Assembly (NCBI GenBank): GCA_009192285.1
Contig: WBVU01000003.1
Location: forward strand, 2,945,973-3,009,972
Origin: Morchella semilibera
Taxonomy: Eukaryota; Ascomycota; Pezizomycetes; Pezizales; Morchellaceae
Length of the DNA: 64,000 nucleotides
Reading direction: 5' to 3'
The notes under the pieces were generated by a model. That model searched no databases and had not been told where the DNA came from. It saw only the letters and a program-made list of their open reading frames with translations. The position numbers and the translations under genes are program-made. Shown here piece by piece: positions 18,038 to 62,740 of the stretch (positions are counted from its first letter, which is position 1; each line of letters begins with the position of its first letter).

Positions 18038-18145
18038 ATGTCTACCTCCTCTACTTCCTCCTGGCCTGTCCGTAACGGAGTCCCAGTTTGGGATAAATTT
18101 ATCAATAAACATCGAGCTGATTGGCTTGATCGTGCCTTTCGTTTA
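18038..18145 (+). pseudogene. Host six-cysteine gene, piece 1 of 5 (codons 1-36)
   Basis: This begins a 211-codon host gene. The ATG at 18038 follows CAACA and precedes a Ser/Thr-rich start (MSTSSTSSWPV), then a basic/aromatic segment (FINKHRADWLDRAF). The frame stops at a MITE inserted at 18146. With the MITE and one TA removed, reading continues directly at 18285. The gene is not a family I can name. A reading with all insertions removed gives 636 nt, exactly 212 codons including TGA, with no internal stop. That is strong evidence the pieces are one gene. The allele as assembled must be non-functional. Confidence 0.85.
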
Positions 18146-18282
18146 CATCAGCAAACTCAACTTGTGACTGTAGTCTCCCAACAGTCTCCTAGGTATCCTG
18201 AGAGTCTCCTGAGGCTCCTGGATATTCTTTGAGTCTCCTGAGGCTCAGGAGACATCAGGAGACAAATGAAGTCTTGCTGATG
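18146..18282 (-). mobile_element. MITE, 137 bp, TA duplication, in the host gene
   Basis: The terminal inverted repeats are CATCAGCAA and TTGCTGATG, flanked by TA on both sides (18144-18145 and 18283-18284). The inside is a chain of inverted GTCTCCTGAGG/CTCAGGAGAC words. A second copy of exactly the same length lies in the opposite orientation at 43342-43478. The TA target and small size fit a non-autonomous Tc1/mariner-type element. No transposase is encoded. Confidence 0.92.
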
Positions 18283-18284
18283 TA

Positions 18285-18393
18285 CCCAGCCTCCATAATT
18301 CTATACAAGTCAATACTCCTATGTGTACAACATGTATCTCTGCTTTACAAGATCGTGGACGCGAGTTCTGTGTTCAAAAGCTTGATCCTACCA
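18285..18393 (+). pseudogene. Host six-cysteine gene, piece 2 of 5 (codons 37-73, part)
   Basis: The frame carries on from piece 1 (R-L, then PSLHNSIQVNTPM) and encodes the first three cysteines, C50-x2-C53-x11-C65. It ends one base into codon 73, where the LTR of element B1 begins at 18394. The last five bases, TACCA, are the target duplication repeated at 31663-31667. Confidence 0.85.
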
Positions 18394-18969
18394 TGTTACG
18401 GAGCAACACGGAGACAACGGACAAGGGGGCCGAAGTACACAACCGAGGCAGGGACGAGGACGGAGACGAGAGACGAAGACGAGGGAACTTATCCGAGAAG
18501 CAGAGTTGTGGGGCAGAGGGTCCAGATGGCCTCTCTGATGAAGACGTGGAGGCGAAGATACCAGTAGACGACACGGACTACGGTCATGGACTATGGACGA
18601 GGCGAAACGAGGCGAGACGAGACAAGACGAGACAAGGCAGGACGAGATACTATAGAAGACGCAAGGGGGTCTTGGCGAGGACTATGGTTATGACGTAATA
18701 TATTCAGAGACTAAAGACACAAGACGAGACGAAACTGAACCGTAGGGTTGATAACAGGAAGAACACGTAAGGAAAGAAAGAGAAAGAAAAGAACAAAGAA
18801 GAGGTCCGTAGCAACGTATATATACTCCTCCTAATCCCTGTACAATCATAACTCATCACATCGTGTAACAGAAACCATAAAAACTCCAAGAACCCGAAAG
18901 AAACACCGCAATCCGAACTCCATTCCGAAATATCCTCCTCCCCTAAGAACTCCGTGGTATGCCGTGATA
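18394..18969 (-). repeat. B1 3' LTR, 576 bp
   Basis: In the sense direction it runs TATCACGGCA...CTCCGTAACA. The 5' LTR of B1, once its solo LTR and one TSD copy are removed, is also 576 bp and nearly identical. A TATATATAC box lies near 18818-18826. Confidence 0.92.
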
Positions 18970-18989
18970 GATTAGGCCCTCCTTCAGGC

Positions 18990-21900
18990 CTAACTCCTGG
19001 TAGGCCTAGGTTTACGTGGGTAGCTATCGTGAAAGTCTTTAACCAAATCGGGGGCATGCTCCAGATCCTCGGGAGGTTGCCAAGATGGTTCATCATAACC
19101 AAGATACCGAACCAAATACTCCAACTTCCCATAACGCCGACGAGAGTCCAAGACTTGTTCCACTTCCCATTCCTGTTCACCTTCGATTTCTATGGCTGGC
19201 GGAGGAGACTGTAATTGACCGGGGACCGGATTGCTGGGCGCAAGAGACAACAGAGACACATGAAACACCGGGTGAATTTTCATAGAAGCCGGGAGGTCGA
19301 GTTCATAAGCATAGGGGCTAACCATCCGCTTAATCACATAGGGGCCAATGCGTTTCCAATCGAGTTTCTTCGAGGGTCGCTTGGTCTCAATATTCCGCGT
19401 CGAAAGAAAAACTTCATCTCCAATGGCATACCTAGGGGCGGGAATTCTATTCCGATTTGCTGCATCCTCATGAATCTTCTGAGCCCGAGCCATTTCATCC
19501 CGAAGAAACTCATAAACCTGTGCCATAGTCCTGGCCATACCATTCGCCTGATCCTCGTTGGTTGTCTTTCCATGCTGTAGCGGGGCAAAGGACATACGAG
19601 GGCTCCTCCCATAATTAGCCTGGAACGGAGACATCCTGGTGGTTTCGGAGACGTGATTATTGGTCGCGAACTCTGCCATCGAAAGATACTGGATCCAATC
19701 GTCCTGTTGGTACGAAACATAGGCTCGGAGGTACTGTTCCATTATGGCATTAATCCTTTCAGTCTGCCCATCTGTTTGTGGGTGAAAGGCGGTGCTATAG
19801 CGAGGAGCGATCTCGAGGCGGGCGCATAAAGTCTTCCAAAATTCGGCAGTAAACTGAGTACCGCGGTCTGAGACAATAGTCTCCGGGAGTCCATGAAGCT
19901 TCCAAACTGAATCAAGATACATAGCAGCAACATCCCTAGCATTTGCCTCCTCCGTACAGGGTATAAAATGGCGCATCTTTGTCAGACGGTCCACCACCAC
20001 CAGAATCGCATTAAAACCATTGCTTTCCTGAAGTCCTGTAACAAAATCCATTGATACATCGGTCCATGGGCCCTTAGGTACGGAAAGTGGATGAAGGACA
20101 CCCTGGAGTGCATTGCGGGAGGCTTTGCTGCGGGAGCATACATGGCAATTCAGAACATAGCGGTCGACATATTTCCTCATATTTGGCCAATAATAGTTAC
20201 GACTAAGAAGCTCGAGGGTCTTGGCGCGACCTGGATGTCCGGCAGAGGGCTTATCATGATGATCCTGCAATAAACGGAGCTGAAGGTCGTTGAACTCAGG
20301 GACGTAAATAGCCTGTCGGTACCGGAGGAATCCGTCCTCCGTTTCCGTGCATTCAGCAAGAGAAATCTTCTTCGAATGTTTGGTGCCATTGCGAAGCATC
20401 GTCAGAACTTGATTCGGAAAACTATCTTCTTGGTAAGCTTGGATCAACAACTCCTTTACGGTAGACATTCCTTCAGCGGGTTCATTTGTCAAAGAACCCG
20501 CCAACAAACTTAGCTTAATCTTTGATTCCAAATTCTCCTGCTTCAATACCACTTGCGACTGATGCATCAACCGTTCGTCCCCTTCCTTTGGCAGATCTCT
20601 TGACCTTCTGGTAAGTGCATCCGGCTTTCCCCCTTGTTTCCCTGGTCTAAACTGAATAACGAAATTAAATCGAGACAGAAATTCAGCCCAACGTGTTGGC
20701 GACGATTTAACAACTTAGTGGACATAAAATATTCCAGGTTCCTATGGTCGCTTAATACTTTAACAGAATATCGGGATCCTTCCAAATTTGGACGCCATTC
20801 TTCAAAACTCCTCACCACTGCCAGCAGCTCCTTATCATAAATCTCGTAATTGCATTCGGCTGGGGAGTGTTTCTTAGAGAAAAAATGCCACTGGGTGCAA
20901 AATTCCATCGTCGCCGTACTGAGACATAATGCCTGCAGAAACATAATCGGAGGTATCGGTTTCCACAATAACTTCTTTTTCAAAGTCAAAGTGGGCCAGG
21001 ATCGGGGCCGAAGTAAACGCATCCTTAAGCTTCCGAAACGCTGCTTCTGCCTTTGGAGACCATTCGAACTTTACGTTTTTCTTGGTCAAAGCGGTGAGCG
21101 GGGGCAACAACTCGAGAATACGCATAAATAAATCGCCGATAGAAATTAGCGAAGCCTAGGAACTCTTGAACCTCCCGAAGTCTGGTGGGTGTTTCCCAAT
21201 CCCTAACTGTGGATACCTTGCTAGGGTCCATCTGGATGCCTTCCGGGGTAACAATCAACCCCAGATACTTGGTCTGTTGCACGTAGAACTCACACTTTTC
21301 CCGGTTTTAAATGTACACCGTGCATTTGAAAAACCTTCAAAATTTCTCGAACGTGTTGCTTATGCTCCTCCAGAGTCTCGGAGTAAATTAATACATCATC
21401 GAGATAGGCTGTGGCAAAGTCATCCAAAAAGGGGCGCAGGAGATCGTTGATCCAGTGTTGGAAAGTGGCGGGGGCGTTGGTAAGTCCGAAAGGCATCACA
21501 TTATATTCGAAGTGGCCATAGCAGGTCCTAAAAGCGGTTTTCCACTCATCTCCTTCCTGGATTCTAATCTGATGATAGCCCCAACGAAGGTCCAGCTTGG
21601 TGTAGTACTTTGCTTTCGAAAGGCGCGACAGAGTTTCTGGAATTAGGGGCAGGGGATGGCGGTTTTTAACCGTTATCTCGTTGAGCTTCCGGTAGTCGAC
21701 ACACAGGCGAAGAGAGCCATCAGACTTCTTTACAAATAATACGGGGGCACCGGCGGGAGATTCAGAATACCGAATAAAGCCCTTGGACAGGTTTTCCGTA
21801 ATATAATCCCTAAGGGCCTGAAGTTCAAGTCGGGACATACCATAGAGAGGCCCGAATGAAGGTACCTTCCCATCCTGCAAGACTATTTTCAAGTCATGAG

Positions 21901-22568
21901 GACGGTGCGGTGGCAGAGCAAGGGCATCATTTTCATTAAACAAGGGTAAAAATTCCCGAAGTTCCGGAGGTATATGGGGCCAGGGAGTCTGCAACTTGTT
22001 TCCCAACAAGAGCCTCATCAATAGCACGGATCGACGCACAGAAGAGTTTATTTTGCCGGGCGTCGAGCAAGTCCTATAAAGGGGGCGGCTCCAATGGCCG
22101 CGATCTGAATGGCTGGGGCATCGGGGAACGAAACCGAAATTCCCTTTGCCGTAACCGGAGCATGAGAGCGAGAACAGTTCTGGACACAGAAGTCAGAGTC
22201 AAAGATGATCTTATTCGTCTTTGGTCTGATAGCCAAGTCATGGCGCCTCATCCAGGGAATGCCCATGACTAGTGGGTAATGTCCTAGCTTGGTGACAAAG
22301 AACGGAACAATTTCCTGATGACCGTTAATATCCAGCGACAGCTTTACCATATGCGTAATTTTCCCTGATTCCACCAGCCTGCCGTCGATTACCTCGAGCA
22401 AGCGTGATGTCTTCAGGGGAACCAAAACGAGGCCATGCTGCAAAACAAAATCCTTGGTCCACAAAAGCATAGCCCGAAGCGCCTGTATCTATCAGGGCAT
22501 GGGGTGGCAATGGGGGAGGCGGCGTTCTGGGCAACGGAACAGGAGACAACAAGAGATTCCTCAGACAT
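18990..22568 (-). pseudogene. B1 pol, frameshifted
   Basis: Gypsy polyprotein with all domains in order: protease ([14 protein letters not shown] near 22490), reverse transcriptase ([10 protein letters not shown] near 21390), RNase H ([16 protein letters not shown]), integrase with the HHCC finger and DDE core ([25 protein letters not shown]) and a chromodomain at the end (EYLVRYLGYDEPSWQP). The last 527 codons (20570-18990) are one open frame. Upstream, the frame changes near 20567, 21025-21125, 21285, 22040 and 22330-22470. The hairpin normally found at the gag-pol junction is deleted in this copy (22621-22640). Confidence 0.9.
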
Positions 22569-22632
22569 CCTGTCTTCGGAAACAGCGGCGGCGGAGAGAA
22601 CAAAGGTGGGTGGCGGGACTAGCCCCTTTTAG

Positions 22633-23406
22633 CGCCGGCTTGGGGGTCACCAACTCAACTGGTGTTTTACGCCAATGTCAGAGGTGCGGGAGTCTTGGGA
22701 GCGAGGGGCGAGATATCGGGGTTTTGAGGTCTGGGCGACGGGGCTGGCTGGCTTCCGGGCAGTGCTGGGGGGCGACGGGAGAAAGGCGGCGGCGAAGATC
22801 AGCAATGGTAGCATCAGCATCGGCAAGGGCCTCCTGATGCAGAGCCAGACGGTAACGGAATTCCTCCTTCTCAGCCTTGAGGGAGGCAACTTCTTCCTGG
22901 AGGTCCTCGATGGCCTCGGTTGACTCTTCCTGGGCCTCGCACATACGAGACCAGAGATCAGCAGCCTTTTCTTCGGCCGCCTCGATTTTCCAGTTCGAGG
23001 TTCTCAATGACCTCATCGTGGGCCGTGCATACGGCAGGTTCCTTGGGAGCGGGGGCAGCGACCTCAACGGGGGTGGTTAGGGCGGCCAGGGCTTCGGCAA
23101 TCAGGATATGGGCTTGGGTAAGCTCGTACCCGAAGTCCTCTTCGACAGGGCCAAAGGTTTCCAAGAAGCTCGTAAGTCTCTCGGTCAGGGTTGTGGGGGC
23201 AGGGGCGACAAGGGTGTCCAGGGGGCGGCCAATGGTGTGTTGGGCCAGGGCGGAGTCTCTGAGGCCACGAATAATAGCTTCCGAGTCATGGGCGGGGCAG
23301 GAGTTATCAAGGATGGGGGCTCCGATATGAAGCTTACCCGGGGCAGGTTGGGTGAAGGTGGCCTTGGCCCAGTGGGCATCGGCACGCTTGAGACCGTGGG
23401 CGAGGG
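22633..23406 (-). pseudogene. B1 gag, C-terminal part
   Basis: It encodes the family B Gag: GFGYELTQAH-type segment, PAVCTAHDEVIENLELE, then a long predicted coiled coil ending in ADATIADLRRRLS. There is no CCHC zinc knuckle. The N-terminal part continues at 30187-30383 beyond the inserted element B2. Frameshifts split the region. Confidence 0.8.
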
Positions 23407-24074
23407 TGTTACGGAGCCACACGGAGACAACAGACAAGAGGGCCGAGGTACACAACCGAGGCCGGAACAAGGACGAAGACGAGGGACGAGGACGGGAGAA
23501 CTTAACCGAGGAGCAATATTGTGGGGGCAGAGGGTCCAAATGGCCTCTCTGACGAAGACGTGGAGACGAAGGTACCAGTAGACGACACGGGACTAATGGC
23601 CATGGGCTATGGGCGAGACGAGGCGAAGCGAGACGAGGCGAGGCAAGACGAGACAAGACGAGGGCGAGGCGAGGCAAGATACTATGTAGGACCCAAGAGG
23701 GGCTCGGCAGAGACTATGGTTATGACGTAGTATATTCAGAACTAAAGACACAAGACGAAACGAAACTAAACCGTAGGGTTGACAACAGTGAAGTTATAAC
23801 AGAGATTGGACCGTAAGCTGAAAGAAAGAGAATTAGAATAAGAAGCGAAGGGAGATCTGTGCAACTATACTACTAGCCATTCCATTTTTCCGCTGCTTCA
23901 TAAATCCCTGTGAGGAATCAATGAACTCACTAAATCAAGTCGTAATCGGAAACCCATAGAAACTCTCAGAGAACCCAAATATTTATAGAAAAAACACCCA
24001 GCAACGAGTCCAAAACCATTGCCCGAATCCCATCCTCCTCTCAGGATGCGACTCCGTGGTAAGCGCCGAGTATA
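23407..24074 (-). repeat. B2 3' LTR, heavily disturbed
   Basis: The first 370 bases match the other B LTRs closely. From about 23790 to the end it shows many short insertions, and the expected terminal GCCGTGATA reads GCCGAGTATA. The boundary is approximate. Confidence 0.75.
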
Positions 24075-24535
24075 TTTAAGGGCCCTCTCCTCATGTGGCC
24101 TAGACGTCAGGTAGGTTCCTAAGGTTTTCGTGGGGTATCCAGGTGTTGTGATAACCTATTTCTCTAATCAGTCGGGCGATATGGCGTCTATAGTCCATCG
24201 GCCCGTTGGGGTTGCCGGGTTGGATTTTGGTTCGTAAACAATACCAAGATACTAGAACTTAACCAAATACTTGTACCCAGTTTTTCCATTAGCGAAACGC
24301 CGAGAATCTAAGAGCTTTGTTCACATTCCGCATTCCTGTTCATGCCTGTACGATTTCTATAAAGCTGGGGGCGGAATTTACGACATTGTAGGCTGGGACG
24401 AGTAACTAATGGACCTTGCTAGGGGGTTAGGCAATGAGGGAGGCAGAGAATAGGGAACAACAGCAAATGTGAAAATTATCCGGGTGAGGATCCTCTCATC
24501 TATCAAGGAGGTGCTGTGTGAGATCTTTGAGGTCA

Positions 24536-27500
24536 CTAGTCATTTAATGGGGCTAACCATTCGCTTAACAACATAGGGGCCGATGCGTTTCCAGTCGAGT
24601 TTCTTCGAGGGTCGCTTGGTTTCAATATTCCGAGTGGAGAGGAATACTTCATCTCCGATAGCGTACCTGGGGGCGGGAATCCTATTCCGATTTGCTGCAT
24701 CCTCATGGATCTTCTGAGCCCGAGCCATTTCATCACGAAGAAACTCATAAACCTGTGCCATAGTCCTGGCCATACCATTTGCCTGGTCCTCATTGGTTGT
24801 CTTTCCATGCTGTAGCGGGGCAAAGGACATGCGGGGACTCCTCCCATAATTAGCCTGAAACGGGGACATCTTAGTAGTCTCGGAGACATGTTTATTAGTC
24901 GCAAACTCCGCCATCGAAAGATACTGAGTCCAATCGTCCTGTTGGTACGAAACGTAGGCTCGAAGATATTGTTCCATAATGGCATTAATCCTCTCGGTCT
25001 GCCCGTCTGTCTGTGGATGAAACGCGGTACTATAGCGAGGGGCAATCTCAAGACGGGAGCATAAAACTTTCCAAAATTCGGCCGTAAACTGTGTGCCACG
25101 GTCCGAGACAATAGTTTCTGGGAGTCCNGGCGGAGACTGTAGCTGGCCGGGAACTGGATTGCTGGGGGCAAGAGACAGAAGGGACACATGGAATACCGGG
25201 TGAATTTTCATAGAGGCCGGGAGATCGAGCTCATAAGCATAGGGGCTAACCATTCGCTTAACAACATAGGGGCCGATGCGTTTCCAGTCGAGTTTCTTCG
25301 AGGGTCGCTTGGTTTCAATATTCCGAGTGGAGAGGAATACTTCATCTCCGATAGCGTACCTGGGGGCGGGAATCCTATTCCGATTTGCTGCATCCTCATG
25401 GATCTTCTGAGCCCGAGCCATTTCATCACGAAGAAACTCATAAACCTGTGCCATAGTCCTGGCCATACCATTTGCCTGGTCCTCATTGGTTGTCTTTCCA
25501 TGCTGTAGCGGGGCAAAGGACATGCGGGGACTCCTCCCATAGTTAGCCTGAAACGGGGACATCTTGGTAGTCTCGGAGACATGGTTATTAGTCGCAAACT
25601 CCGCCATCGAAAGATACTGAGTCCAATCGTCCTGTTGGTACGAAACGTAGGCTCGAAGATATTGTTCCATAATGGCATTAATCCTCTCGGTCTGCCCGTC
25701 TGTCTGTGGATGAAACGCGGTACTATAGCGAGGGGCAATCTCAAGACGGGAGCATAAAACTTTCCAAAATTCGGCCGTAAACTGTGTGCCACGGTCCCGA
25801 GACAATAGTTTCTGGGAGTCCATGAAGTTTCCAAAACCGAGTCGAGGTACATAATAGCCACGTCCCTAGCATTTGCTTCCTCTGTACAGGGTATAAAGTG
25901 ACGCATCTTCGTTAGACGGTCAACCACCACCAGGATTGCGTTGAAAACCATTGCTTTCCGGGAGTCCTGTGACGAAATCCATTGACACATCGGTCCATGG
26001 GCCCTTTGGTACAGTAAGAGGTCGAAGAACACCTTGGAGGGCATTGCGAGAAGCTTTGCTGCGGGAACACACCCTACAATTCAGAACATAGCGATCGACG
26101 ATTTCCTCATATTGGGCCAGTAATAATTCCGGCTGAGGAGTTCAAGGGTCTTGGCGCGACCTGGATGTCCGGCGGAGGGCTTATCATGATGGTCCTGTAA
26201 AAGACGAAGCTGAAGATTATTAAACTCAGGAACATAGATCGCCTGGCGATACAAGAGGAACCCGTCCTCTGTTTCCATACATTCAGCAAGAAAATCTTCT
26301 TCGATTGTTTGGTGCCATTGCGAAGCATGGTAAGAACTTGATCAGGAAACTATCTTCTTGGTAAGCTTGGATCAACAACTCCTTCACGGTGGGCATTCCT
26401 TCAGCGGGTTCATTTGTCAAAGAACCCGCCAACAAACTTAGCTTAATTCCTGCTTCCAAATTCTCCTGCTTCAATACCACTTGCGACTGGTGCATAAGGC
26501 GCTCATCTCCTTGCTTAGGTAAATCTCTTGACCTCCGAGTAAGTGCGTCCGGTTTTCCCCCTTGTTTCCCTGGCCGAAATTGAATCACAAAATTAAACCG
26601 GGATAGAAATTCCGCCCACCGAGTCTGGCGACGGTTCAACAACTTTGTCGACATAAAATATTCCAGATTCCTGTGGTCACTTAAGACCTTAATAGGAAAA
26701 CGAGACCCTTCCAAGTTCGCGCGCCATTCCTCAAAACTCCTGACCACTGCCAGCAATTCCTTATCATAGATTTCATAATTGCATTCCGCCGGGGAGTGTT
26801 TCTTAGAGAAGAATGCTACCGGGGTGGAGAAGTCCATCATCACCGTACTGTGACATAATACCTGCGGAAACATAATCTGAGGCATCGGTTTCCACAATGA
26901 CTTCTTTTTCAAAATCAAAGTGGGCGAGAATCGGAGCCGAAGTAAATGCATCCTTAAGCTTCTGAAATGCCTCCTGCGCCTTCTGGGACCATTCGAACTT
27001 TACATTCTTCTTGGTCAGGGCAGTAAGCGGGGACACAACTCGGGAGTAGGCATAAATAAACCGTCGGTAAAAATTTGCAAAGCCTAAAAATTCTTGAACC
27101 TCCCGAAGCCTAGTGGGTATTTCCCCAATCCCTCACTGTCGATACTTTGCTAGGGTCCATCTGGATACCCTCCGGGGTCACAATCAACCCGAGGTATTTA
27201 GTCTGTTGTACGTAGAATTCACACTTCTCAGGCTTGAGGTGAACACCATGGATCTGGAAAAACTTTCAAAATCTCCCGAACATGTTGCTTATGCTCCTCC
27301 AGAGTCTCGGAGTAAATTAATACATCATCGAGATATGCCGTGGCAAAATTATCCAAATAGGGGCGTAGAAGATCGTTAATCCAGTGTTGGAACGCAGCAG
27401 GAGCATTGGTCAGTCCAAAGGGCATCACGTTATACTCGAAATGTCCATAGCGAGTCCGAAAAGCCGTTTTCCACTCATCGCCCTCTTGTATCCTAATTTG

Positions 27501-28488: not shown

Positions 28489-28540
28489 TCTGTCTTCGGA
28501 AACGGCGGCAGCGGAAAGAACAAAAGTGGGTGGCGGGACT

Positions 28541-28587
28541 AGCCCCTTTGGTGTGCCAATTTCTACCAAAGGGGCTGACCTTTTAAC
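28541..28587 (-). promoter_or_regulatory. B2 gag-pol junction: candidate -1 frameshift signal
   Basis: On the minus strand, GTTAAAA (28587-28581) in gag phase G-TTA-AAA is followed by a 4-nt spacer and a perfect 12-bp stem, AGCCCCTTTGGT with ACCAAAGGGGCT, with a 12-nt loop. The gag stop TAG overlaps the first arm. Pol is open in the -1 frame across the site. Confidence 0.7.
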
Positions 28588-29526: not shown

Positions 29527-29588
29527 TATGACCGGAGCGAGGCGAAACGGGGGCGTTGTGTAGGTCGGCGGAGGAGACGTGTTCTTAG

Positions 29589-51646: not shown

Positions 51647-51667
51647 GCAGGTGACCCCCAAGCCGGC

Positions 51668-51714
51668 GTTAAAAGGTCAGCCCCTTTGGTAAATATTGGC
51701 AAACCAAAGGGGCT
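51668..51714 (+). promoter_or_regulatory. B4 gag-pol junction: candidate -1 frameshift signal
   Basis: GTTAAAA (51668-51674), spacer GGTC, then a perfect 12-bp stem AGCCCCTTTGGT (51679-51690) with ACCAAAGGGGCT (51703-51714). In the ancestral gag frame the heptamer reads G-TTA-AAA and pol is the -1 frame. The loop sequence differs from B2 and B3 but both arms are identical. Confidence 0.75.
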
Positions 51715-54700
51715 AGTCCCGCCACCTACTTTTGTTCTTTCCGCTGCCGCCGTTTCTGAAGACAGAATGTCTGAGGAATCTCTTGTTGTTCCCTGCTCCG
51801 TCGCCCAGGACACCGTTACCTCTATTGCTACCCATGCCCTGATAGATACAGGCGCTTCGGGCTATGCTTTCGTTGACCAAGGATTTGTCTTGCAACATGG
51901 CCTCGTCCCGGTTCCCCTGAAGACATCACGCTTGCTCGAGGTAATCGACGGCAGGCTGGTGGAGTCAGGGAAAATTACACACATGGTGAAGCTGTCGCTG
52001 AACATTAATGGTCACCAGGAAATCGCTCCGTTTTTTGTTACCAAGCTAGGACATTACCCATTGGTCATGGGTATTCCCTGGATGAGACACCACGATCTGG
52101 CCATCAGACCGAAGACGAATAAGATCATCTTCGATTCTGACTTTTGCGTTCGAAATTGTTCTCAGTCCCATGCTACGGTAACCGTCAAAGGAATCTCTGT
52201 TTCGTTCCCGGACGCCCCCGCTATTCAGATCGCGGCCATTGGGGCCGTACCTTTTGTGGGGCTCGCTCGGCGCCGACAGAATAAACTCTTCTGCGCCTCA
52301 ATTCGAGCCATCGATGAAGTCCTTGCTGGAAAAACGAACCAGGATCCCTTAGCTCATGTACCCAAGGATCTTCAGGAGTTTATGTTATTGTTCCAGGAAA
52401 GCCAAGCCACCGCCTTGCCGCCGCACCGCCCTCATGATTTGAAAATAGTCTTACAGGATGGAAAGGTTCCCCCGTTTGGTCCGCTATATGGCATGTCTCG
52501 TTTGGAACTGCAGGCTCTTAGGGATTACATTACGGAGAACCTGTCGAAAGGGTTTATTCGTTATTCCGAATCACCCGCCGGTGCTCCTGTTTTGTTCGTG
52601 AAGAAATCTGACGGCTCTCTTCGACTCTGTGTGGATTATAGGAAGCTTAACGAGATCACGGTTAAAAACCGCCACCCTCTGCCGCTAATCCCAGAAACCC
52701 TCTCCCGACTCTCCAAGGCGAAGTACTACACTAAGTTGGACCTCCGTTGGGGATATCATCAGATCCGGATCCAAGAAGGAGACGAATGGAAGACCGCTTT
52801 TAGGACGCGCTACGGCCACTTTGAGTATAATGTGATGCCTTTTGGTCTGACCAATGCTCCCGCTGTGTTCCAACATTGGATTAATGACCTCCTGCGTCCC
52901 TATTTGGATAACTTTGCCACGGCCTATCTCGACGATGTATTAATTTACTCCGAGAATCTCGAGGAACATAAGCAACATGTCCGGGAAATTCTGAAGGTGT
53001 TCCAATTCCATGGTGTTCACCTTAAACCAGAGAAGTGCGAGTTCTATGTCCAGCAGACTAAGTATCTCGGATTGATCGTGACCCCGGAGGGTATTCAGAT
53101 GGATCCTAGCAAGGTTTCGACGGTTAGAGATTGGGAAACACCCACCAGGCTTCGGGAGGTCCAAGAGTTTCTGGGCTTTGCAAATTTTTATCGACGGTTT
53201 ATTTACGCCTATTCTCGAGTTGTATCCCCGCTTACCGCCCTGACCAAGAAGAATGTAAAGTTCGAATGGTCCCAGAAGGCGCAGGAGGCATTCCAGAAGC
53301 TCAAGGATGCTTTTACTTCGGCCCCGATTCTCGCCCACTTTGACTTTGAAAAAGAGGTTATTGTGGAAACCGATGCCTCGGACTACGTCTCTGCCGGTAT
53401 TATGTCCCAGTACGGTGATGATGGAATTCTACACCCCGTGGCTTTCTTCTCCAAGAAACATTCTCCAGCAGAATGTAACTACGAGATCTACGATAAGGAA
53501 CTGTTGGCAGTTGTTAGGAGTTTCGAAGAATGGCGTGCGAACCTAGAGGGGTCCCGTTTCCCTATTAAGGTATTAAGCGATCATAGGAACCTGGAATATT
53601 TTATGTCTACGAAGCTATTGAATCGTCGCCAAACTCGCTGGGCCGAGTTCTTGTCGCGGTTTGATTTTGTCATTCAATTTCGACCAGGGAAACAAGGAGG
53701 GAAGCCGGATGCGCTTACCAGGAGATCGAGGGATTTACCCAAGGAAGGAGACGAGCGTCTGACGCATCAGTCACAGGTGGTATTGAAGCAAGAGAATTTG
53801 GGATCAAGGATTAAGCTAAGTTTGTTGGCGGGTTCTTTGACAAATGAACCCGCTGAAGGAATGCCTACCGTGAAGGAATTATTGATCCAAGCTTACCAAG
53901 AAGATAGTTTTCCCGATCAAGTCCTCACCATGCTTCGCAATGGTACCAAACAGTCGAAGAAGATTTCTCTCGCCGAATGTACGGAAACAGAGGACGGGTT
54001 TCTTCTATATCGTCAGGCTATTTATGTCCCCGAGTCCAGTGCCCTTCAGCTTCGTCTTTTGCAGGATCACCACGATAAACCCTCCGCTGGACATCCAGGC
54101 CGCGCTAAGACTCTTGAACTTCTCAGCCGGAATTACTACTGGCCAAATATGAGAAGATATGTCGATCGATATGTTCTAAATTGCAATGTGTGCTTTCGTA
54201 GTAAGGCTTCTCGCAATGCTTTACAAGGCGTTCTCCGACCCCTGGCGGTACCTAAAGGCCCATGGACCGATGTATCGATGGATTTTGTAACCGGACTGCC
54301 GGAGAGTAATGGCTTTAATGCAATTTTGGTTGTAGTGGACCGTCTAACAAAGATGCGCCATTTTATACCTTGCACGGAGGAGGCAAATGCCAGGGACGTT
54401 GCAGCTATGTATCTCGATTCGGTTTGGAAACTTCATGGACTCCCCGAAACCATTGTCTCAGACCGTGGCACTCAGTTTACAGCCGAATTTTGGAAGACCT
54501 TATGTTCCCGCCTTGAGATTGCCCCACGTTATAGTACCGCCTTTCATCCACAGACAGATGGGCAGACTGAAAGGATTAATGCCATTATGGAACAGTATCT
54601 TCGAGCCTATGTTTCGTATCAACAGGATGATTGGACCCAGTATCTCTCAATGGCGGAGTTTGCAACCAATAACCATGTCTCCGAGACCACCAAGATGTCC

Positions 54701-55339
54701 CCGTTTCAGGCTAATTATGGAAGGAGTCCCCGCATGTCCTTTGCCCCGCTGCAGCATGGAAAGACAACCAATGAGGATCAGGCGAATGGCATGGCCAGAA
54801 CTATGGCCCAGGTTTATGAGTTTCTGCGTGATGAAATGACTCGGGCTCAGAAGATTCATGAGGACGCAGCGAATCGGAATAGAATTCCCGCCCCTAGATA
54901 TGCTATCGGGGATGAAGTTTTTCTCTCGACTCGGAATATTGAGACTAAGCGGCCCTCGAAGAAACTTGACTGGAAGCGCATAGGTCCCTATACGATTAAG
55001 CGGATGGTTAGCCCCTATGCTTACGAACTTGACCTCCCCGCTTCGATGAAAATTCACCCTATTTTTCATGTGTCCCTGTTGTCTCTTATGCCATGCAACC
55101 CCGTCCCCGGTCAAGTACAGTCCCCGCCTCCAGCGATAGAAATTGAAGGTGAACAAGAGTGGGAGGTGGAACAAGTTTTAGATTCTCGTCGGCGGTATGG
55201 AAAATTGGAATATTTGGTGCGGTATCTTGGTTACGATGAACCTTCATGGCAGCCCCCTGAGGACTTAGAGCATTCTCCCGATTTAGTCAAGGATTTTCAC
55301 GATAGGTATCCACGCAAGCCTAGGCCTATCAGGAGTTAG
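51686..55339 (+). CDS. B4 pol, intact: protease, RT, RNase H, integrase, chromodomain
   Basis: The only full-length, unbroken pol here. It is open for 1217 codons from 51686 and further upstream to the slip site, so it is probably made by -1 frameshifting; the first ATG is at 51767. Domains: protease ([14 protein letters not shown], residues 53-66), RT ([20 protein letters not shown]; catalytic [10 protein letters not shown] near 415), RNase H ([16 protein letters not shown] near 565), integrase finger ([21 protein letters not shown]), DDE core ([32 protein letters not shown]), a C-terminal region ([16 protein letters not shown]), and the chromodomain (EWEVEQVLDSRRRYGKLEYL, RYLGYDEPSWQPPE). 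A polypurine tract (CTGAAGGAGGGCC) precedes the 3' LTR. Confidence 0.95.
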   Translation: MVNIGKPKGLVPPPTFVLSAAAVSEDRMSEESLVVPCSVAQDTVTSIATHALIDTGASGYAFVDQGFVLQHGLVPVPLKTSRLLEVIDGRLVESGKITHMVKLSLNINGHQEIAPFFVTKLGHYPLVMGIPWMRHHDLAIRPKTNKIIFDSDFCVRNCSQSHATVTVKGISVSFPDAPAIQIAAIGAVPFVGLARRRQNKLFCASIRAIDEVLAGKTNQDPLAHVPKDLQEFMLLFQESQATALPPHRPHDLKIVLQDGKVPPFGPLYGMSRLELQALRDYITENLSKGFIRYSESPAGAPVLFVKKSDGSLRLCVDYRKLNEITVKNRHPLPLIPETLSRLSKAKYYTKLDLRWGYHQIRIQEGDEWKTAFRTRYGHFEYNVMPFGLTNAPAVFQHWINDLLRPYLDNFATAYLDDVLIYSENLEEHKQHVREILKVFQFHGVHLKPEKCEFYVQQTKYLGLIVTPEGIQMDPSKVSTVRDWETPTRLREVQEFLGFANFYRRFIYAYSRVVSPLTALTKKNVKFEWSQKAQEAFQKLKDAFTSAPILAHFDFEKEVIVETDASDYVSAGIMSQYGDDGILHPVAFFSKKHSPAECNYEIYDKELLAVVRSFEEWRANLEGSRFPIKVLSDHRNLEYFMSTKLLNRRQTRWAEFLSRFDFVIQFRPGKQGGKPDALTRRSRDLPKEGDERLTHQSQVVLKQENLGSRIKLSLLAGSLTNEPAEGMPTVKELLIQAYQEDSFPDQVLTMLRNGTKQSKKISLAECTETEDGFLLYRQAIYVPESSALQLRLLQDHHDKPSAGHPGRAKTLELLSRNYYWPNMRRYVDRYVLNCNVCFRSKASRNALQGVLRPLAVPKGPWTDVSMDFVTGLPESNGFNAILVVVDRLTKMRHFIPCTEEANARDVAAMYLDSVWKLHGLPETIVSDRGTQFTAEFWKTLCSRLEIAPRYSTAFHPQTDGQTERINAIMEQYLRAYVSYQQDDWTQYLSMAEFATNNHVSETTKMSPFQANYGRSPRMSFAPLQHGKTTNEDQANGMARTMAQVYEFLRDEMTRAQKIHEDAANRNRIPAPRYAIGDEVFLSTRNIETKRPSKKLDWKRIGPYTIKRMVSPYAYELDLPASMKIHPIFHVSLLSLMPCNPVPGQVQSPPPAIEIEGEQEWEVEQVLDSRRRYGKLEYLVRYLGYDEPSWQPPEDLEHSPDLVKDFHDRYPRKPRPIRS

Positions 55340-55359
55340 GCCTGAAGGAGGGCCTAATC

Positions 55360-55938
55360 TATCACGGCGTACCACGGAGTTTGCAGGAGAGGAGGATATT
55401 CGGGAATGGGTTTTCGGTTGCGGTGTTTTCTTTTGGGTTCTTGGAGTTTCTATGGGTTTCTGTTACACGATGTTATGAGTCATGATGGTGCAGGGATTAG
55501 GAGGGGTATATATACGTTGCTACGGATCTTCCCTTTGTTCTTTTCTTTCTCTTTCTTTCCTTACGTGTTCTTCCTGTTGTCAACCCTACGGTTTAGTTTC
55601 GTCTCGTCTTGTGTCTTTAGTCCTGAATATATTACGTCATAACCATAGTCTTCGCCCAGACCCTAGTGGGTCTTCCATAGTACCTCGTCTCGTCCTCGCT
55701 TTGCTTCGTTCTCGCCCCGCCTCGTCTCGCCTCGTTTATAGTCCATGACCGTAGTCCGTGTCGTCTACTGGTACCTTCGTCTCCACGTCTTCGTCAGAGA
55801 GGCCATTTGGACCCTCTGCCCTACAACCCTGCTCCTCGGTTAGGTTCTTCCGTCGTTGCCTCTCGTCTTCGTCCTCGTCCCCGCCTCGGTTGTGTACCTC
55901 GGCTCTTCTGTTTGTTGTCTCCGTGTTGCTCCGTAACA
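55360..55938 (+). repeat. B4 3' LTR, 579 bp
   Basis: It lacks one T (GTGTTTTC versus GTGTTTTTC) and one base in AGTACCTCGTC compared with the 5' LTR. Otherwise I see no differences. Confidence 0.95.
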
Positions 55939-56214
55939 ATAAAGTATATTGAATACTAGTTACAGAAGACGTTGCGTGAAGAGAAAAGAGAAAGAAAGAA
56001 AATACAGGAATAGGCGCCGTTGCCCCCCTTATATACTCAATATTCCGGAGCCAAGCCTGACTCATATCCTCGTGTAACCCCAACTATGACTCATATCCTT
56101 GCGTAACAGAAACCCATAGAATCTACTCTGACTCACCCCCACCTCCGAGCTTACAATAATCCCAACCCCGCCAATCAGTCCAGTCCTCCCGTCCCAGCGT
56201 ATACATGAAAACTG

Positions 56215-56220
56215 TTTACG
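56215..56220 (+). pseudogene. Host six-cysteine gene, piece 4 of 5 (six bases)
   Basis: TTTACG sits between the AACTG duplication of C and the LTR of D. It supplies the last base of codon 82, codon 83 and two bases of codon 84. Its last five bases, TTACG, are the TSD of D. Confidence 0.82.
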
Positions 56221-56709
56221 TCTAACGGGGTGGGGTCGGGCCAAGGGCTCAACGGGGTAAATCCAAGGAAGGGGACGAGGACAGGGTCGGCTCAGGAGAT
56301 ACCCGAGACGAGACAGGTTCAGGTTCAGGTTCAGGTTCAGGTTCAGGGACGAGGTAAGAACAGGAGGGCCGAAGCCAAAGTAATATATTGCTTAACAGAA
56401 AGAAGACGTTGCCTAGAGAGGCAGAAACATAGGAAAGAATACACACTATATATACAACTTCCCCGTCACACCGCTGACTCATAACCATAGAATCCCATAG
56501 AATCTCCCCCACTCCCGTACCACCCATACTATTCCCAATACTCATACCTCTAGCCCGATACTACCCCATCCTTCCTAGCGCTTACATTCTATCACCCGAG
56601 CTCCTTCCCAATCCATCATTCTTCTTCCGACATCGACCGATACTATCCAACAACCCTGTTCCGGAGACGTCTTGGCGGAAGACGAGGTACAGGAGGCGGA
56701 GCCGTGATA
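56221..56709 (-). repeat. D 3' LTR, 489 bp
   Basis: In the sense direction it begins TATCACGG and ends CCGTTAGA, so the ends are not TG...CA. It contains five CAGGTT hexamers (56314-56343). The last 22 codons of pol are read from inside it. Confidence 0.95.
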
Positions 56710-59700
56710 GTTGCCCTCTCATTAGGTTCGAGCTCCGCGAGAACTCCGTCAGGTCTCGGCTTGGTGGGATACGCCGTGTGGAAACGGGTCAACAGACGGG
56801 GGACATTGGTAAGATTCTCCGCGTACTCCCAGGTTGGTGCGTCATAGCCCTTCCACTTAACCAAATACTGCAAACGTGAATAACGAAGACGGGAGTCTAA
56901 TAGCTCATCAACTTCCCATTCTTCATCACCATCAACAATTACCGGAGGTGTGGGGGGAGGAATATGTCCTGGTAGAGAATCGGTAGCGCAAGGTTCCAAC
57001 TTCGAGACATGAAAAACAGGATGTATCTTCATCGTAGAGGGCAGATCAAGTTCGTAGGCATAGGGACTAATAACAGACTTAATCTTAAATCTGCCGAGGC
57101 GTTTCCAATCAAGCTTCCGAGAGGGCCTAGTGGTCTGAATATTCCTGGCATTCAGCCATACCTCATCACCCACATGGTAGACGGGAGCGGGGACTCGGTG
57201 GGCATTAGCATTGATTTCTTGTCGGTCCTGTGCATAACACATCTCTGCTTGCAATTGATCATATATCTCAGCCATTTTATCAGCGAGAGCGTTCGTATCC
57301 TGGGGGCCATTAACGAACGGGGGCAGGGCGAGATTTTCCGTAAAACGAGGGTCAAACCCATGATTAGCCATAAAGGGAGATACCTGCGTAGTTTCCGAGG
57401 GGTGATTATTTGATGCAAACTCGGCAAGGGGAAGCCAGTCGACCCAATCATCCTGTTGATAGGAAACATAACTCCGAAGATACTGTTCCATAATCGCATT
57501 AACTCGTTCCGTCTGGCCATCAGTTTCTGGATGAAAGGCCGATGACATGGCTACATTAATTCCCAGTGCCTTGCATAGGGATTGCCAAAACCGAGATGTA
57601 AATTGAGTACCTCGATCAGAAACAATACTGGTGGGGAGCCCGTGAAGCTTCCAAACATGGTCAATAAAGAGACGAGCTAGGTCCTCGGATCCCGTGGTAG
57701 TATGGCAGGGAATATAGTGTCTCATCTTAGAGAGACGGTCAACCACAACTAGAATCGCATCCTTTCCTTTACTCTCGGGCAGTCCAGTAACAAAGTCCAT
57801 AGAAATATGAGTCCAGGGCCTCTGCGGAATTGGTAGCGGTCGAAGGACGCTATAAGGAGCATGACGAGACGTCTTGCTATGGCTGCAAGTATGACAATTC
57901 CTAGCATAGCGATCCACCGTATTGCGCATCCCTGGCCAATAGTAGGAACGGGCAAGAAGCTGAAAGGTTTTTGCTTTCCCAGGGTGGCCTGCAGATGGAG
58001 CATCATGGTGTTCTTTTAACAGATGCAAGTGCAAAGACGCATCGTCTGGCACAAAGAGTTTTCCACGGTAGGTCAAGAGGCCTTTCCTGGTCGAACATTC
58101 TGCTAAAGTAATTTCTCGGGAATGCCTAACGCCATCTCGGAGAAGTCCTAAGATTTTATTCGGAAAAGGGTCAGTGATATACGCCTGTTCAAAAACTTTT
58201 TCTAGGGGTGACTGTCCTCGGACAGCCGGAATGGCTGCCAACAAACCCAAATTATGGGACTTCAACACTGTCTGACTTTGCTGCGTCAGGCGTTCATCCC
58301 CCTCTTTAGGCAGATCTCCTGATCTCCTAGTCAATGCATCCGGTTTTCCTCCTTGCTTCCCCGGTCGATACTTAATCACATAATTAAAACGAGAAAGAAA
58401 CTCTGACCAACGTGCCTGTCGGCGATTCAAATCCCTCTTGGTCATAAAATATTCCAGGTTCCGATGGTCGCTCAGAACTTCAATAGGTTCGGCGACACCC
58501 ATCAGTTCAGCTCTCCATTCTTCGAAACACTTAATAATAGCCAATAGTTCCTTATCATAGATCTCATAATTACATTCAGCGGGGGAGTGGGTTCCGGAAA
58601 AGAAGGCAACGGGATGCAAGATATTCTCATCGCTATACTGAGAGAGTGTACCGCCCGAAACATAATCTGATGCGTCCGTTTCCACAATAGCTCGACGATC
58701 AAAATCAAAGTGACGAAGGATCGGAGCCGTAGTAAATGCGGTTTTAAGTCTTTCGAAGGCTTCTTCGCAGGCAGGGGACCAAACAAACACAACATTCCCT
58801 TTGGTCAGCGTGGTAAGGGGACGAACAATTCCTGAATAGTTTTTAATAAAACGCCGATAGAAATTTGCCCAACCGTTAAACACCTGTATGTCCCTAACAT
58901 TTAGGGGACGGGCCCACTTGACAATAGTTTCAATTTTTTTGGGATCGAGCTTCAGGCCTTCGGTGGTAACAATCATTCCCAAATACTTTACTTCCTTGAC
59001 CTGGAATTCGCACTTCTCGCGGGAGAACAATAAAGATCGGCATCGGTGAGGGCTTGCAAGACCTGGTTAACATGGTTGCGATGTGACTCCAAATCCTCAC
59101 TATAAATAAGAATATCGTCAAGATAAGCCGTGCAGAAGCGGTCCAAAAAGGGACGAAGAGTATCATTAATAAAATGCTGAAAGACGGCAGGAGCATTGGT
59201 CAATCCAAAGGGCATCACTTTATACTGAAAATGACCAACCCTGGTGCGGAATGCAGTTTTCCATTCATCTCCAGCGGCAACTCGGACCAGGTTATAGGCA
59301 TTCTTTAAATCCAACTTGGTATACCATTTGGCCTTGCAGAGTTGATTAAACGTTTCTTTTGGCAGCGGCAAGGGATAGCGATTCTTAACAGTAATCGCAT
59401 TTAGGCCTCGGTAATCCACACAGAATCGAAGTCCACCACCAGGCTTTTTCACAAATAAAACAGGGGATCCGGCGGGGGAGGAGCTAGACTCAATGAATCC
59501 TTTTCTCAACATATCGTCGATGTATTCAACCAATGCGGCCAGTTCATCTCGAGACATACTGTATAGAGGACCGAAGGGGGGTTCTTTTCCTTCATGAAGA
59601 TTAATCCGAATCTTATAGGGACGGTGCGGGGGCAGTTTCTGAGGACCTTCCTTGCCAAACCGTTGCCAAAAGTGATGATATTCAGGAGGGACCAAAGCGG

Positions 59701-60297
59701 CAATTTCCGAAGGTATCGACTCCGTAGAACCACCAAGAAATAGGGCATAGACAGTTAGTCCCTGGGTGGTTTCGGCAAAGGTAGCAGCGCTAGCAGTCTC
59801 AAAGTCGTGATTAGCGGGGAGCGGTGAGGTAATTCCCTTAACATAAGCGGGGACTTGATCATCATTGCAACGTTGAAGACAGAGAGGGGACCCAAAGGTC
59901 AACGAATTGTCGGCGAAATTAATAGTAACATTATGTCAGCGCAGCCAAGGAATTCCTAGCACCAACGGATAATGTCCTAGGCGGGTAACATAGGCGGAAA
60001 TTTTTTCAATATGACCTTGGATGCGAAGGGAAAAATGGGCAATATGAGTAATGCTACCAGAGGAGATTTCTCTTCCATCGATAACATGAAGAGCGCGGGG
60101 ATTAGGGAGAAGAGTAGTGGAAATTTCCTTGTGGCGTACAAATAATTCATCAATGAATGCAAATCTAGAAGCCCCGGTGTCAACAAGTGAGTAGGTTTAA
60201 CAGTTTTATTTTCATCAGATACGATACATGAAACAACAAGATTATCGTTATCCGAAACCTTCTCACCAGAAACACCAGAAGCAGCAGAAGCAGACAA
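56643..60297 (-). pseudogene. D pol: all domains, two frameshifts and one stop
   Basis: Domains in order: protease (the DTGASRFAFID site is recovered only after a one-base shift near 60196), a TGA near 59938 just after PWLR, RT (LCVDYRGLNAITVKNRYPLP-like region reading FCVDYRGLNAITVKNRYP; TAYLDDILIY), a one-base insertion near 59020 (CTCCCGCG), RNase H ([16 protein letters not shown]), integrase finger ([21 protein letters not shown]), DDE core ([32 protein letters not shown]) and chromodomain (EWEVDELLDSRLRYSRLQYL, KWKGYDAPTWEYAE). The final 795 codons (59030-56643) are open. The stop lies inside the 3' LTR. Confidence 0.92.
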
Positions 60298-60308
60298 GGA
60301 AAGAGGAG

Positions 60309-60351
60309 GGACCTGGCCTAAGCCACCTAAGACAGGTCCTCGTGAAAACCC
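60309..60351 (-). promoter_or_regulatory. D gag-pol junction: candidate -1 frameshift signal
   Basis: GGGTTTT (60351-60345) in gag phase G-GGT-TTT, a canonical X-XXY-YYZ heptamer, is followed by a 5-nt spacer CACGA and a 7-bp stem GGACCTG (60339-60333) with CAGGTCC (60315-60309) around a 17-nt loop that holds the gag TAG. The -1 frame is open across the site into protease. Confidence 0.78.
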
Positions 60352-61856
60352 GACTGATCCGGGGCAGTTGTCGACATCGAACCAGGAGAACCCAGTTCCA
60401 AAGATCCAGAGCCAGAAGGAGAAGAAGCACCAAAAGGAAACCCAAAAACATAACCAGAAGAAGAAGAAGAAGAACGAGAAGCTTGATTAATAACAGGAGG
60501 CGTGCCGGCCCCAGACATAACGGGAGGTACACCGACCTCGGAAGTAGCAGCAACACGAGCAGGACGAGCAACAGGACGAGCAGGACATTCAGCAGCAAAA
60601 TGCCCAGGACCTCCGCAATACATGCAGAGTCCTTGAGCGGCACGACGGGCGCGTTCAGCGGGGGTAATAGGGCCACGTCGTTGAGGACGGCGGGCACCAG
60701 AGAGGTCCATTGGCACCGCACCCCCTGGAGAGTAAGAGGGGTGAGGAGCGGGAGCAACAGAAGCGGAAACAGGAACACGAGCAGGAATAGAGGAAGCAAA
60801 GGACTGACGGGTAGCAAAGGGAGAGGAGCGATCTCTGGCACGAGCATCCCTGAGTCTATTATCCAACTTTTGGAGCAGGAGAACATATTCAGAAGTAGTA
60901 ACAGGGACATCGTGGTGGATCATGGCGGAACGGAGCTCACGGGAAAGGCCTTGAGTAAGTGCGTGTTTCTTGGCCTCATCGTTCCATCTGACCTCAGCAG
61001 CCAAACGTTGGAACTCAGCAAAATAAGTGGAGAAGTCTCGGCCGCCTTGGGTAAGACGTTCGAGATCTCGTTCGGCGGTAGCGATACGGTCTGGATCTCC
61101 AAAAGCGGTTTCCAGGATGGTAATCAGGGCCTCAATGTCTTCCAGGTCGATGCGTCCTCCGACAACGAGGGGCATTACCTGGGCAAGGGCACGACCAGAG
61201 AGAAGATTAATAGCATAGGCAAGGCGGGCTTGGGCGGCGGGAAAGCGATCATGGTTGGCGAGCATCTTAAGACGAAGTTGAGTAACAAAAGGGCGAAGTT
61301 CCTCCCGTTTGCCATCAAACTTAGGTGGGTCAGGGACCTTCTCGGAGCGGGGAGCAGTCGCGGCCGGAGGAGGAACTACTGGGGGAACAACTGGGGGAGC
61401 GGCCGGGAGAGGAGAAATAGCGGGAGGAGCAGGAGGGGCAACGGAAGGAGCAGGAGGGACAGCGGGAGGAGCAGGAGGAACAGCGGGAGGAGCAGAAGCC
61501 TGGACAGACAGCAAACTATTGAGCTGACGGACCTCCGTAAGTTGGCCTTCTAGGTTCGTAATTTGCTGTTCAAGATCAGGGATGACAGAGGCAGTGTTCA
61601 GGGCCGTGTCTCTCTCGAAACGGGCCAAGTCTCTCTCATGTCTAATGCGAGAGATATTATACCCCAGAAGATCAAAGAGGAGGGCCTTGTCGTGGTCGTA
61701 TTGATTGGAGAAAGCTTGAACATCCTCAGGAGCAGCCCAAGTGGCAGGAACCACATCGCTGTTAGTGATGCGTTCGGTAATAACAGGTGGAGGGGCAATA
61801 GTAAACGAAGATCCAGAGGCTGCCATAGTAGTATCTCGGGAGCCAAAGGGAGGCAA
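60327..61856 (-). CDS. D gag, 509 residues, intact
   Basis: It starts with MPPFGSRDTT at 61856 (a later start, MAASGSSFT at about 61826, is also possible). Residues about 70-130 are a predicted coiled coil (RDLARFERDTALNTA, LEQQITNLEGQLTEV). A Pro/Ala/Val-rich run follows, then the Gag core (RSEKVPDPPKFDGKREEL, NHDRFPAAQARLAYAINLL, TAFGDPDRIATAERDL, DFSTYFAEFQRLAAEVRW), then a CCHC knuckle (CMYCGGPGHFAAEC). The tail is Ser/Gly-rich and ends SGFHEDLS-TAG. It is the virion structural protein of the element. Confidence 0.93.
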   Translation of the reverse strand: MPPFGSRDTTMAASGSSFTIAPPPVITERITNSDVVPATWAAPEDVQAFSNQYDHDKALLFDLLGYNISRIRHERDLARFERDTALNTASVIPDLEQQITNLEGQLTEVRQLNSLLSVQASAPPAVPPAPPAVPPAPSVAPPAPPAISPLPAAPPVVPPVVPPPAATAPRSEKVPDPPKFDGKREELRPFVTQLRLKMLANHDRFPAAQARLAYAINLLSGRALAQVMPLVVGGRIDLEDIEALITILETAFGDPDRIATAERDLERLTQGGRDFSTYFAEFQRLAAEVRWNDEAKKHALTQGLSRELRSAMIHHDVPVTTSEYVLLLQKLDNRLRDARARDRSSPFATRQSFASSIPARVPVSASVAPAPHPSYSPGGAVPMDLSGARRPQRRGPITPAERARRAAQGLCMYCGGPGHFAAECPARPVARPARVAATSEVGVPPVMSGAGTPPVINQASRSSSSSSGYVFGFPFGASSPSGSGSLELGSPGSMSTTAPDQSGFHEDLS

Positions 61857-61861
61857 CGTAG

Positions 61862-62350
61862 TCTAACGGGGTGGGGTCGGGCCAAGGGCTCAGCGGGGTA
61901 AATCCAAGGAAGGGGACGAGGACAGGGTCGGCTCAGGAGATACCCGAGACGAGACAGGTTCAGGTTCAGGTTCAGGTTCAGGTTCAGGGACGAGGTAAGA
62001 ACAGGAGGGCCGAAGCCAAAGTAATATATTGCTTAACAGAAAGAAGACGTTGCCTAGAGAGGCAGAAACATAGGAAAGAATACACACTATATATACAACT
62101 TCCCCGTCACACCGCTGACTCATAACCATAGAATCCCATAGAATCTCCCCCACTCCCGTACCACCCATACTATTCCCAATACTCATACCTCTAGCCCGAT
62201 ACTACCCCATCCTTCCTAGCGCTTACATTCTATCACCCGAGCTCCTTCCCAATCCATCATTCTTCTTCCGACATCGACCGATACTATCCAACAACCCTGT
62301 TCCGGAGACGTCTTGGCGGAAGACGAGGTACAGGAGGCGGAGCCGTGATA
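61862..62350 (-). repeat. D 5' LTR, 489 bp
   Basis: I see one substitution relative to the 3' LTR (CTCAGCGG versus CTCAACGG), which implies recent insertion. A TATA box is at 62088-62095. The bases following the LTR in the sense direction are CTACGTTGCCTCC. Confidence 0.95.
62088..62095 (-). promoter_or_regulatory. TATA box of the D 5' LTR
   Basis: TATATATA is present at the matching place in both D LTRs (56447-56454 in the other). It is the probable core promoter. Confidence 0.55.
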
Positions 62351-62355
62351 TTACG

Positions 62356-62740
62356 TAATGGTCGCAAATGCTCTTTAAACCCTCGATCTCTTAAGCGACC
62401 AGTTATTAGTCTCCTCTCCGATGAAGAAGACAACAGCAGCAATAGTCATTCTCCACCTCAACAAAACATCAAACGATTCCTACAAGATAAAGAAATCAAG
62501 AAAGAGGAAGTAAATAAAGAAGGAGAGACCGAGGGAAAGAGAAAAAAATTTCTAAAGGAAATGAAATGCCATTTGGAGAGAAAAATGAGTTTCATCGACC
62601 AGATTGAGATAGCTAAGTATGAACAGGAAACTATACGGGAGGAATACAAAAAACAGATTACCAGTTGTAAGAATCAGATTTCTAGAATAGATATGCTTGT
62701 ATTGGAGCTTAATGAAGAGCTACTTAAGTTGGATCTATGA
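62356..62740 (+). pseudogene. Host six-cysteine gene, piece 5 of 5 (codons 84-211 and stop)
   Basis: Reading resumes at the third base of codon 84 (R-N-G-R-K) and gives the last cysteine, C89, of the set C50-x2-C53-x11-C65-x13-C79-x2-C82-x6-C89. An acidic/serine-rich segment follows (LLSDEEDNSSNSHSPPQQ), then a lysine/glutamate-rich predicted helix or coiled coil (MSFIDQIEIAKYEQETIREE to LNEELLKLDL), ending TGA. Three CxxC-type pairs and a following coiled coil recall fungal Zn2Cys6 regulators, but the spacing is longer than theirs. The role is unknown. Confidence 0.83.

Follow-up and report, generated by a model that had tools for sequence, protein, structure and literature searches.

Helitrons that carry a TET gene (TET+ Helitrons) have been published for the Pezizales, in five species belonging to four families, and the available parts of that report assign them to Helitron1 (PMC12730594). 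The same parts give HxE, in place of HxD, as the hallmark of the PE-type TET/JBP dioxygenase. They also propose, in terms stated there to be without experimental test, that transposon-borne TET/JBP enzymes counter silencing by methylation. In vertebrates, TET2 and CXXC4/IDAX illustrate an enzyme and a Cys-rich DNA-binding partner encoded by separate genes, the partner having been split off by an inversion, according to the portion of the source at hand (PMC6566030). Here we analyze a 64,000-nucleotide stretch of the Morchella semilibera genome (C19:2945973-3009972; hereafter the window), in which an open reading frame (ORF) lies in five pieces across 44.7 kb, beside the remains of a gene for a Tet-like dioxygenase. 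Judging from sequence, we assign a probability of about 0.86 to the reading that this ORF is 3'-terminal in a large, multi-copy, Helitron-type rolling-circle transposon and was broken by later insertions.

The likeness to the TET+ Helitrons of Pezizales, so far as the available parts of PMC12730594 describe them, is that in both a Helitron bears a gene for a Tet-type dioxygenase. TET-bearing Helitrons were already known from that report; what appears to be new here is a conserved second ORF paired with the dioxygenase. The main text of PMC12730594, in the parts available, makes no mention of a second conserved ORF paired with the TET gene, and a literature search, judged largely without full texts, found no plain description of a dioxygenase-paired ORF. 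The likeness between the TET2 and CXXC4/IDAX genes and the dioxygenase/ORF pair would be one of arrangement only. Compared by eye with the available parts of PMC6566030, the cysteine pattern of the ORF product appears to differ.

A split ORF and its uninterrupted copies

The five pieces all lie on the forward strand and measure 108, 109, 29, 5 and 385 nt, for a total of 636 nt. Piece 1 (18038..18145) is open and begins with an ATG start, piece 2 spans 18285..18393, piece 3 spans 31668..31696, and piece 5 (62356..62740) ends in a TGA stop. Piece 4 (56216..56220) is TTACG alone, the left target duplication of a long terminal repeat (LTR) retrotransposon, element C. Translated singly and unjoined, the pieces read MSTSSTSSWPVRN...RAFRL / PSLHNSIQ...KLDPT / RVISSCNN / NGRKCSLNP...LLKLDL and the stop, with 0 internal stops.

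We compared the pieces with eight copies elsewhere in the genome (56.8 Mb in 23 contigs, after which the copies are named). Alignment coordinates are relative to window position 62351, and overlaps between pieces are the duplicated bases. In an uninterrupted copy on C2, the pieces lie end to end, in order and in frame, without gaps. Window 18043-18146 aligns to -241..-138 of this copy (99/104 identical), 18285-18393 to -138..-30 (101/109), 31663-31696 to -34..-1 (33/34) and 62351-62741 to 0..390 (369/391). The 34 nt at 31663-31696 are identical at 34/34 positions in C21a, C21b and C22. The C11 and C1 copies also aligned without gaps. Piece 1 has a 1-nt gap in C6 and a 3-nt gap in C21a, C21b and C22, and piece 5 has five gap positions in C4. 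As measured by these alignments, the fit between pieces and copies is far beyond chance, and an ORF assembled from chance pieces is ruled out by the collinear uninterrupted copies. The original prediction of one ORF in five pieces, 636 nt long and without an internal stop, is upheld, since each piece is open and the set is collinear and in frame with unbroken copies. The window copy itself is a fossil, and with its ORF split over 44.7 kb it most likely no longer makes the protein.

The right-hand piece of the ORF had 15 further matches in the genome. A protein-level search returned 28 ORF matches at about 19 loci by our own grouping, and the ORF therefore does not occupy the single locus expected of a host gene. 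The reading frame runs uninterrupted from start codon to stop codon in six copies (C2, C11, C21a, C21b, C22 and C4), and in the C6 copy it is likewise open, with a 1-nt gap close to the start. The C1 copy contains stops, and both C7 copies combine stops with an internal miniature inverted-repeat transposable element (MITE) or LTR-like sequence. The C21b and C22 copies are not independent, as both sit in a stretch of 17 kb or more that the two contigs share at 99.7% identity (C21:528-546 kb and C22:529-546 kb). In C2, C6 and C11 the ORF matches perfectly across 203 codons, and the ~6 kb upstream of it differs by 1.3-2.4%. Within the genome, all recognised ORF copies belong to the repeat family. 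By number and similarity, these matches show that the repeat family has spread to many loci, and that its spread through the genome was partly recent, with several ORF copies staying open.

Helitron features and the neighbouring dioxygenase gene

The 3' end of a Helitron is CTRR followed by the T of the target, its 5' end is TC, and it inserts between A and T and leaves no target duplication. All 10 aligned copies, nine of them independent, share the 3' end ...CAGCACCTGCGCGTCAACCCTAG followed by TT, with C4 less alike, and their flanks beyond this point are unrelated. CTAG followed by TT agrees with the CTRR and T rule in 10/10 aligned copies. In the window, this end of the Helitron-type element reads ...CGCGTCAACCCTAG followed by TT at 62741..62820 on the forward strand, after which the copies diverge. 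The genome contains 29 Helitron_like_N (Rep) matches, and 8 of these are upstream of ORF copies, on the same strand and at a distance of 10.3-22.7 kb (C1, C2 with two, C6, C7, C11, C21 and C22). The C11 copy also carries a PIF1 helicase ORF (E 8.3e-31) between Rep and the rest of the element. The combination of Rep (HUH) and helicase that marks a Helitron thus appears in the family and not in the window copy.

Together with the dioxygenase pairing, the shared 3' boundary, the upstream Rep and the helicase argue for an ORF carried by a transposon and not a host gene. The original prediction had taken it for a host gene. That claim gives way to a repeated ORF with about 19 loci, a 3' end shared by 10/10 copies, 8 Rep matches upstream and a place beside the dioxygenase at 12/12 loci. 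A single host gene is ruled out by the copy number, the common terminus and the Rep matches. The tempting picture of a split host gene becomes that of a gene belonging to one transposon and disrupted by others.

In the window, the N-terminal part of a Tet-like 2OG-Fe(II) dioxygenase gene lies at 15092..15654 on the reverse strand, cut by LTR sequence at ~13327-15091. Its 3' part is lost near 15092, and the matched part holds one stop. Tandem arrays fill 15907..17924 between the two divergent genes, with a 60-bp unit repeated 5.0 times and then a ~161-bp unit repeated 9.6 times, and similar arrays occur in other copies. Across the genome, 17 dioxygenase matches fall into 12 loci, most of them copies of one family. 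An ORF copy lies head-to-head with the dioxygenase at all 12, within 3.5 kb at 11 of them and at 9.2 kb on C7. A clearly diverged dioxygenase/ORF pair at C2:1431563-1435643 (66% and 52% protein identity, respectively) has no Rep match nearby, which suggests either a remnant or another family of greater age.

The family assignment was made on the C11 dioxygenase protein (PF20515, E 3.6e-36). The gene is open over all 351 residues only in the C11 and C4 copies. At the putative HxD/HxE place, chosen by eye, the three copies that cover it all read HRD, whereas the PE type has HxE in the available parts of PMC12730594. Since the HxE hallmark is not found, we file the enzyme only as Tet-like, PF20515. 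No relatives of the dioxygenase were found in the protein database (1495 candidates, E up to 0.001) by a search that, like the one made with the ORF, detects only relatives with short words in common. Its profile had no PDB sequence match at E up to 1.

The ORF product and its possible role

We estimated the ratio of nonsynonymous to synonymous substitution rates (dN/dS) from Nei-Gojobori counts for seven ORF copies, from WPVRNG onward. Between C4 and the six other copies, dS is 0.83-0.86 and dN/dS is 0.08-0.10, and between C2/C6/C11 and C21a/C21b/C22 dN/dS is 0.12-0.19. For the dioxygenase, dN/dS is 0.19-0.45 across five copies, some of which have shifted tails. These substitution counts show that the diverged ORF copies bear the mark of purifying selection, as would be seen in an ORF that is maintained. 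A dioxygenase-bearing family of Helitron type has kept a second gene under purifying selection, fixed head-to-head with the dioxygenase gene.

The ORF product is ~210 aa long, with a six-cysteine cluster, an acidic and Lys/Glu-rich middle and a C-terminus that is probably helical. Read by eye, the cysteine pattern is CX2C-X11-C-X13-CX2C-X6-C, with one Cys lost in C4. The stretch VISLLSDEED is what we take to be a near-match to a SUMO-interaction motif, and QQNIKRFL is a near-match to the PCNA-interacting protein (PIP) box. The two motifs occurred together in 0.035% of 20,000 shuffles, with patterns picked after inspection of the protein. The PIP consensus demands F[F/Y] in the available parts of PMC5371812, whereas the ORF product has FL. 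As leads and not tests, the cysteines and the SUMO-interaction-like and PIP-box-like stretches hint at a nuclear protein linked to DNA or replication. Nothing in Pfam rose above the cut-off for the ORF pieces (DUF6372, E 0.082) or for copies with an open frame (DUF6537, E 0.11; Zn_clus, E 2.8). The ORF had no PDB sequence match at E up to 1 and no homologue in the protein database (133 candidates, E up to 0.01).

In the arrangement that we propose, the large Helitron-type element would bear Rep, PIF1 helicase, the Tet-like dioxygenase and a 3'-terminal ORF divergent from the dioxygenase, in constant order. In the window copy, the dioxygenase gene lacks its 3' part and the ORF has taken four hits, one from a MITE and three from LTR retrotransposons. 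The ORF might serve the transposon jointly with the dioxygenase, a tentative idea with the odds leaning against it. The dioxygenase may oxidise 5-methylcytosine and so relieve silencing, and the ORF product may recruit to the element either the dioxygenase or the replication machinery. In a more specific version, the ORF would encode a dedicated, hitherto undescribed partner of the dioxygenase. This targeting protein would bind zinc, be linked to PCNA or SUMO, and direct oxidation or a rolling-circle replication step to the Helitron. The head-to-head pair would then form a two-gene anti-silencing module. This version, which we consider unlikely, draws on the 12/12 paired dioxygenase loci (mostly of one family), the low dN/dS, the six-cysteine cluster and the motif near-matches. 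If it is true that the ORF helps the enzyme to find transposon DNA, the pair would offer a handle on how fungal transposons escape DNA methylation.

Insertions in the window copy and alternative explanations

The inserts that break the ORF are one MITE of 137 bp and three Ty3/gypsy LTR elements (A, B and C), all with exact target duplications. Two of the three LTR elements gathered further insertions and are now nests. The MITE (18146..18282) has 9-bp inverted ends CATCAGCAA/TTGCTGATG, identified by eye, and a TA duplication at 18144-18145 / 18283-18284. This part of the window has 54 genome matches, 51 of them on the MITE, which are lower bounds with 40 of 861 candidates scored. Short, noncoding and present in many copies, it would be of Tc1/mariner type by its TA and inverted ends alone.

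Element A (18394..31662, reverse strand) is flanked by TACCA (18389-18393 / 31663-31667) and has LTRs at 18421-18969 / 31114-31662 with 3 differences in 549 positions. It encodes an integrase and a chromodomain, and it contains more gypsy sequence and a solo-LTR-like insert at ~30477-31113. Element B (31697..56210, reverse strand) is flanked by ACTGT. Its LTRs at 31825-32099 / 55936-56210 show 7 differences in 275 positions, and its domains are reverse transcriptase, RNase H and protease. Within B lies element E (37287..49445; duplication TCCTT; LTR pair 98.1% identical over 628), and within E lies element F (40170..46365, forward strand; CCAGG; 99.4% over 468). Element D (50062..55938, forward strand; ATAAA; 99.5% over 585) sits inside the right-hand LTR of B. 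Element C (56221..62350, reverse strand) is flanked by TTACG (56216-56220 / 62351-62355), differs at 1 of 490 positions between its LTRs and carries gag, RNase H, integrase and a chromodomain. Elements A, B and C each have the LTR pair, target duplication and gag/pol domains of an LTR retrotransposon, with only some pol ORFs of A and B covered by the domain scan.

The duplications TA, TACCA and TTACG stand exactly as first proposed, and the third is ACTGT, not AACTG. The 6-mer AACTGT is present on either side of this junction, and the LTR pair of B sets the 5-bp duplication at 31692-31696 / 56211-56215. The border between pieces 3 and 4 therefore shifts, leaving piece 3 to end at 31696 and piece 4 as TTACG only, with the total length unchanged. 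Elements B and C inserted 5 bp apart, and piece 4 is the 5-bp duplication between them.

Nested fungal Ty3/gypsy chromodomain LTR retrotransposons have the same LTR pairs, 5-bp duplications, gag/pol domains and chromodomain, and the geometry of the split gene is itself ordinary nested transposition. The sole oddity compared with such elements is that three insertions fall within 34 nt of one ORF. The three LTR insertions (18389-18393, 31692-31696 and 62351-62357) span ~34-35 nt, and for three in 35 nt of the 636-nt ORF P is 0.009. In a C7 ORF copy, a MITE sits at a TA 1-2 bases from the position matching the window site of element C. For four insertions within 37 nt, P is 0.06 on a count of nine across all copies, the positions of several being rough, and 0.009 on a count of six. 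These values are suggestive of an insertion hotspot in the ORF.

A single N at 25128 lies inside element A, with a 580-bp near-duplicate (99.3%) on either side (24549-25127 / 25242-25821), and marks an assembly join within the element. Because the LTRs, the duplication and the ORF agree across it, we trust the order of element A across the N, and we do not trust its length. Elsewhere, an ORF copy at C2:2034.7 kb is cut by another single N.

This N and its near-duplicate would be the starting point for the view that the block is a misassembly joining unrelated gene fragments. That view is highly improbable, given that the 5-bp duplications of all six elements (A-F) agree left and right, identity within LTR pairs is 97.5-99.8% and the ORF continues with the very next base after every junction. 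About as slim is the chance that insertions broke a host gene whose other allele is still whole, in a second nucleus or a different strain. The frame is open in the pieces and unbroken copies do exist, but they occur at ~19 loci with a common 3' boundary, unrelated flanks, Helitron Rep upstream and a constant dioxygenase neighbour. Nor does the open frame call for such an allele, since the LTR ages alone account for it. By LTR divergence, B is the oldest insertion, followed by A and then C, on small counts. In the time since B inserted, 636 nt should have gained ~8 substitutions and 0.3 new stops (4% nonsense fraction assumed), and an open frame is therefore unsurprising. Of the two options that the original prediction had drawn from the open frame, recent disruption or an intact allele, unbroken copies are indeed found elsewhere in the genome and the allele is not needed.

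The Helitron-type reading has evidence weighing against it as well. Rep, dioxygenase and ORF are joined into one putative element through repeated co-location only, about 10 of the 19 ORF loci lack an upstream Rep match, and no Rep match lies inside the window. Folding of the last 53-56 nt gave no support, in the three copies folded, for the hairpin that a Helitron has just ahead of its 3' end, with 83, 173 and 60 of 200 shuffles equally good. Very close ORF pairs have dN/dS of 0.25-0.51, on 3-9 changes only. Helitrons are known to capture genes, and the ORF could be a captured host gene, cargo useless to the element, a view that also fits the half of the ORF loci without a Rep match. We regard this as improbable, if not greatly so. 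Every copy recognised in the genome belongs to the repeat family, a search of 133 database candidates gave no relative, and the low dN/dS among diverged copies and the fixed place beside the dioxygenase favour use by the element.

Just to the right of the block, a host RFT1 gene (PF04506 relatives) retains its 5' part intact at 63025-63810. The best database matches to the RFT1 exon are 76% identical, and the three matches that carry a species name among the 120 listed of 394 are 45-48% identical. At the other end of the window, a 101-bp tandem repeat (4.8 copies, 95%) occupies 1-487 and is cut by the window edge.

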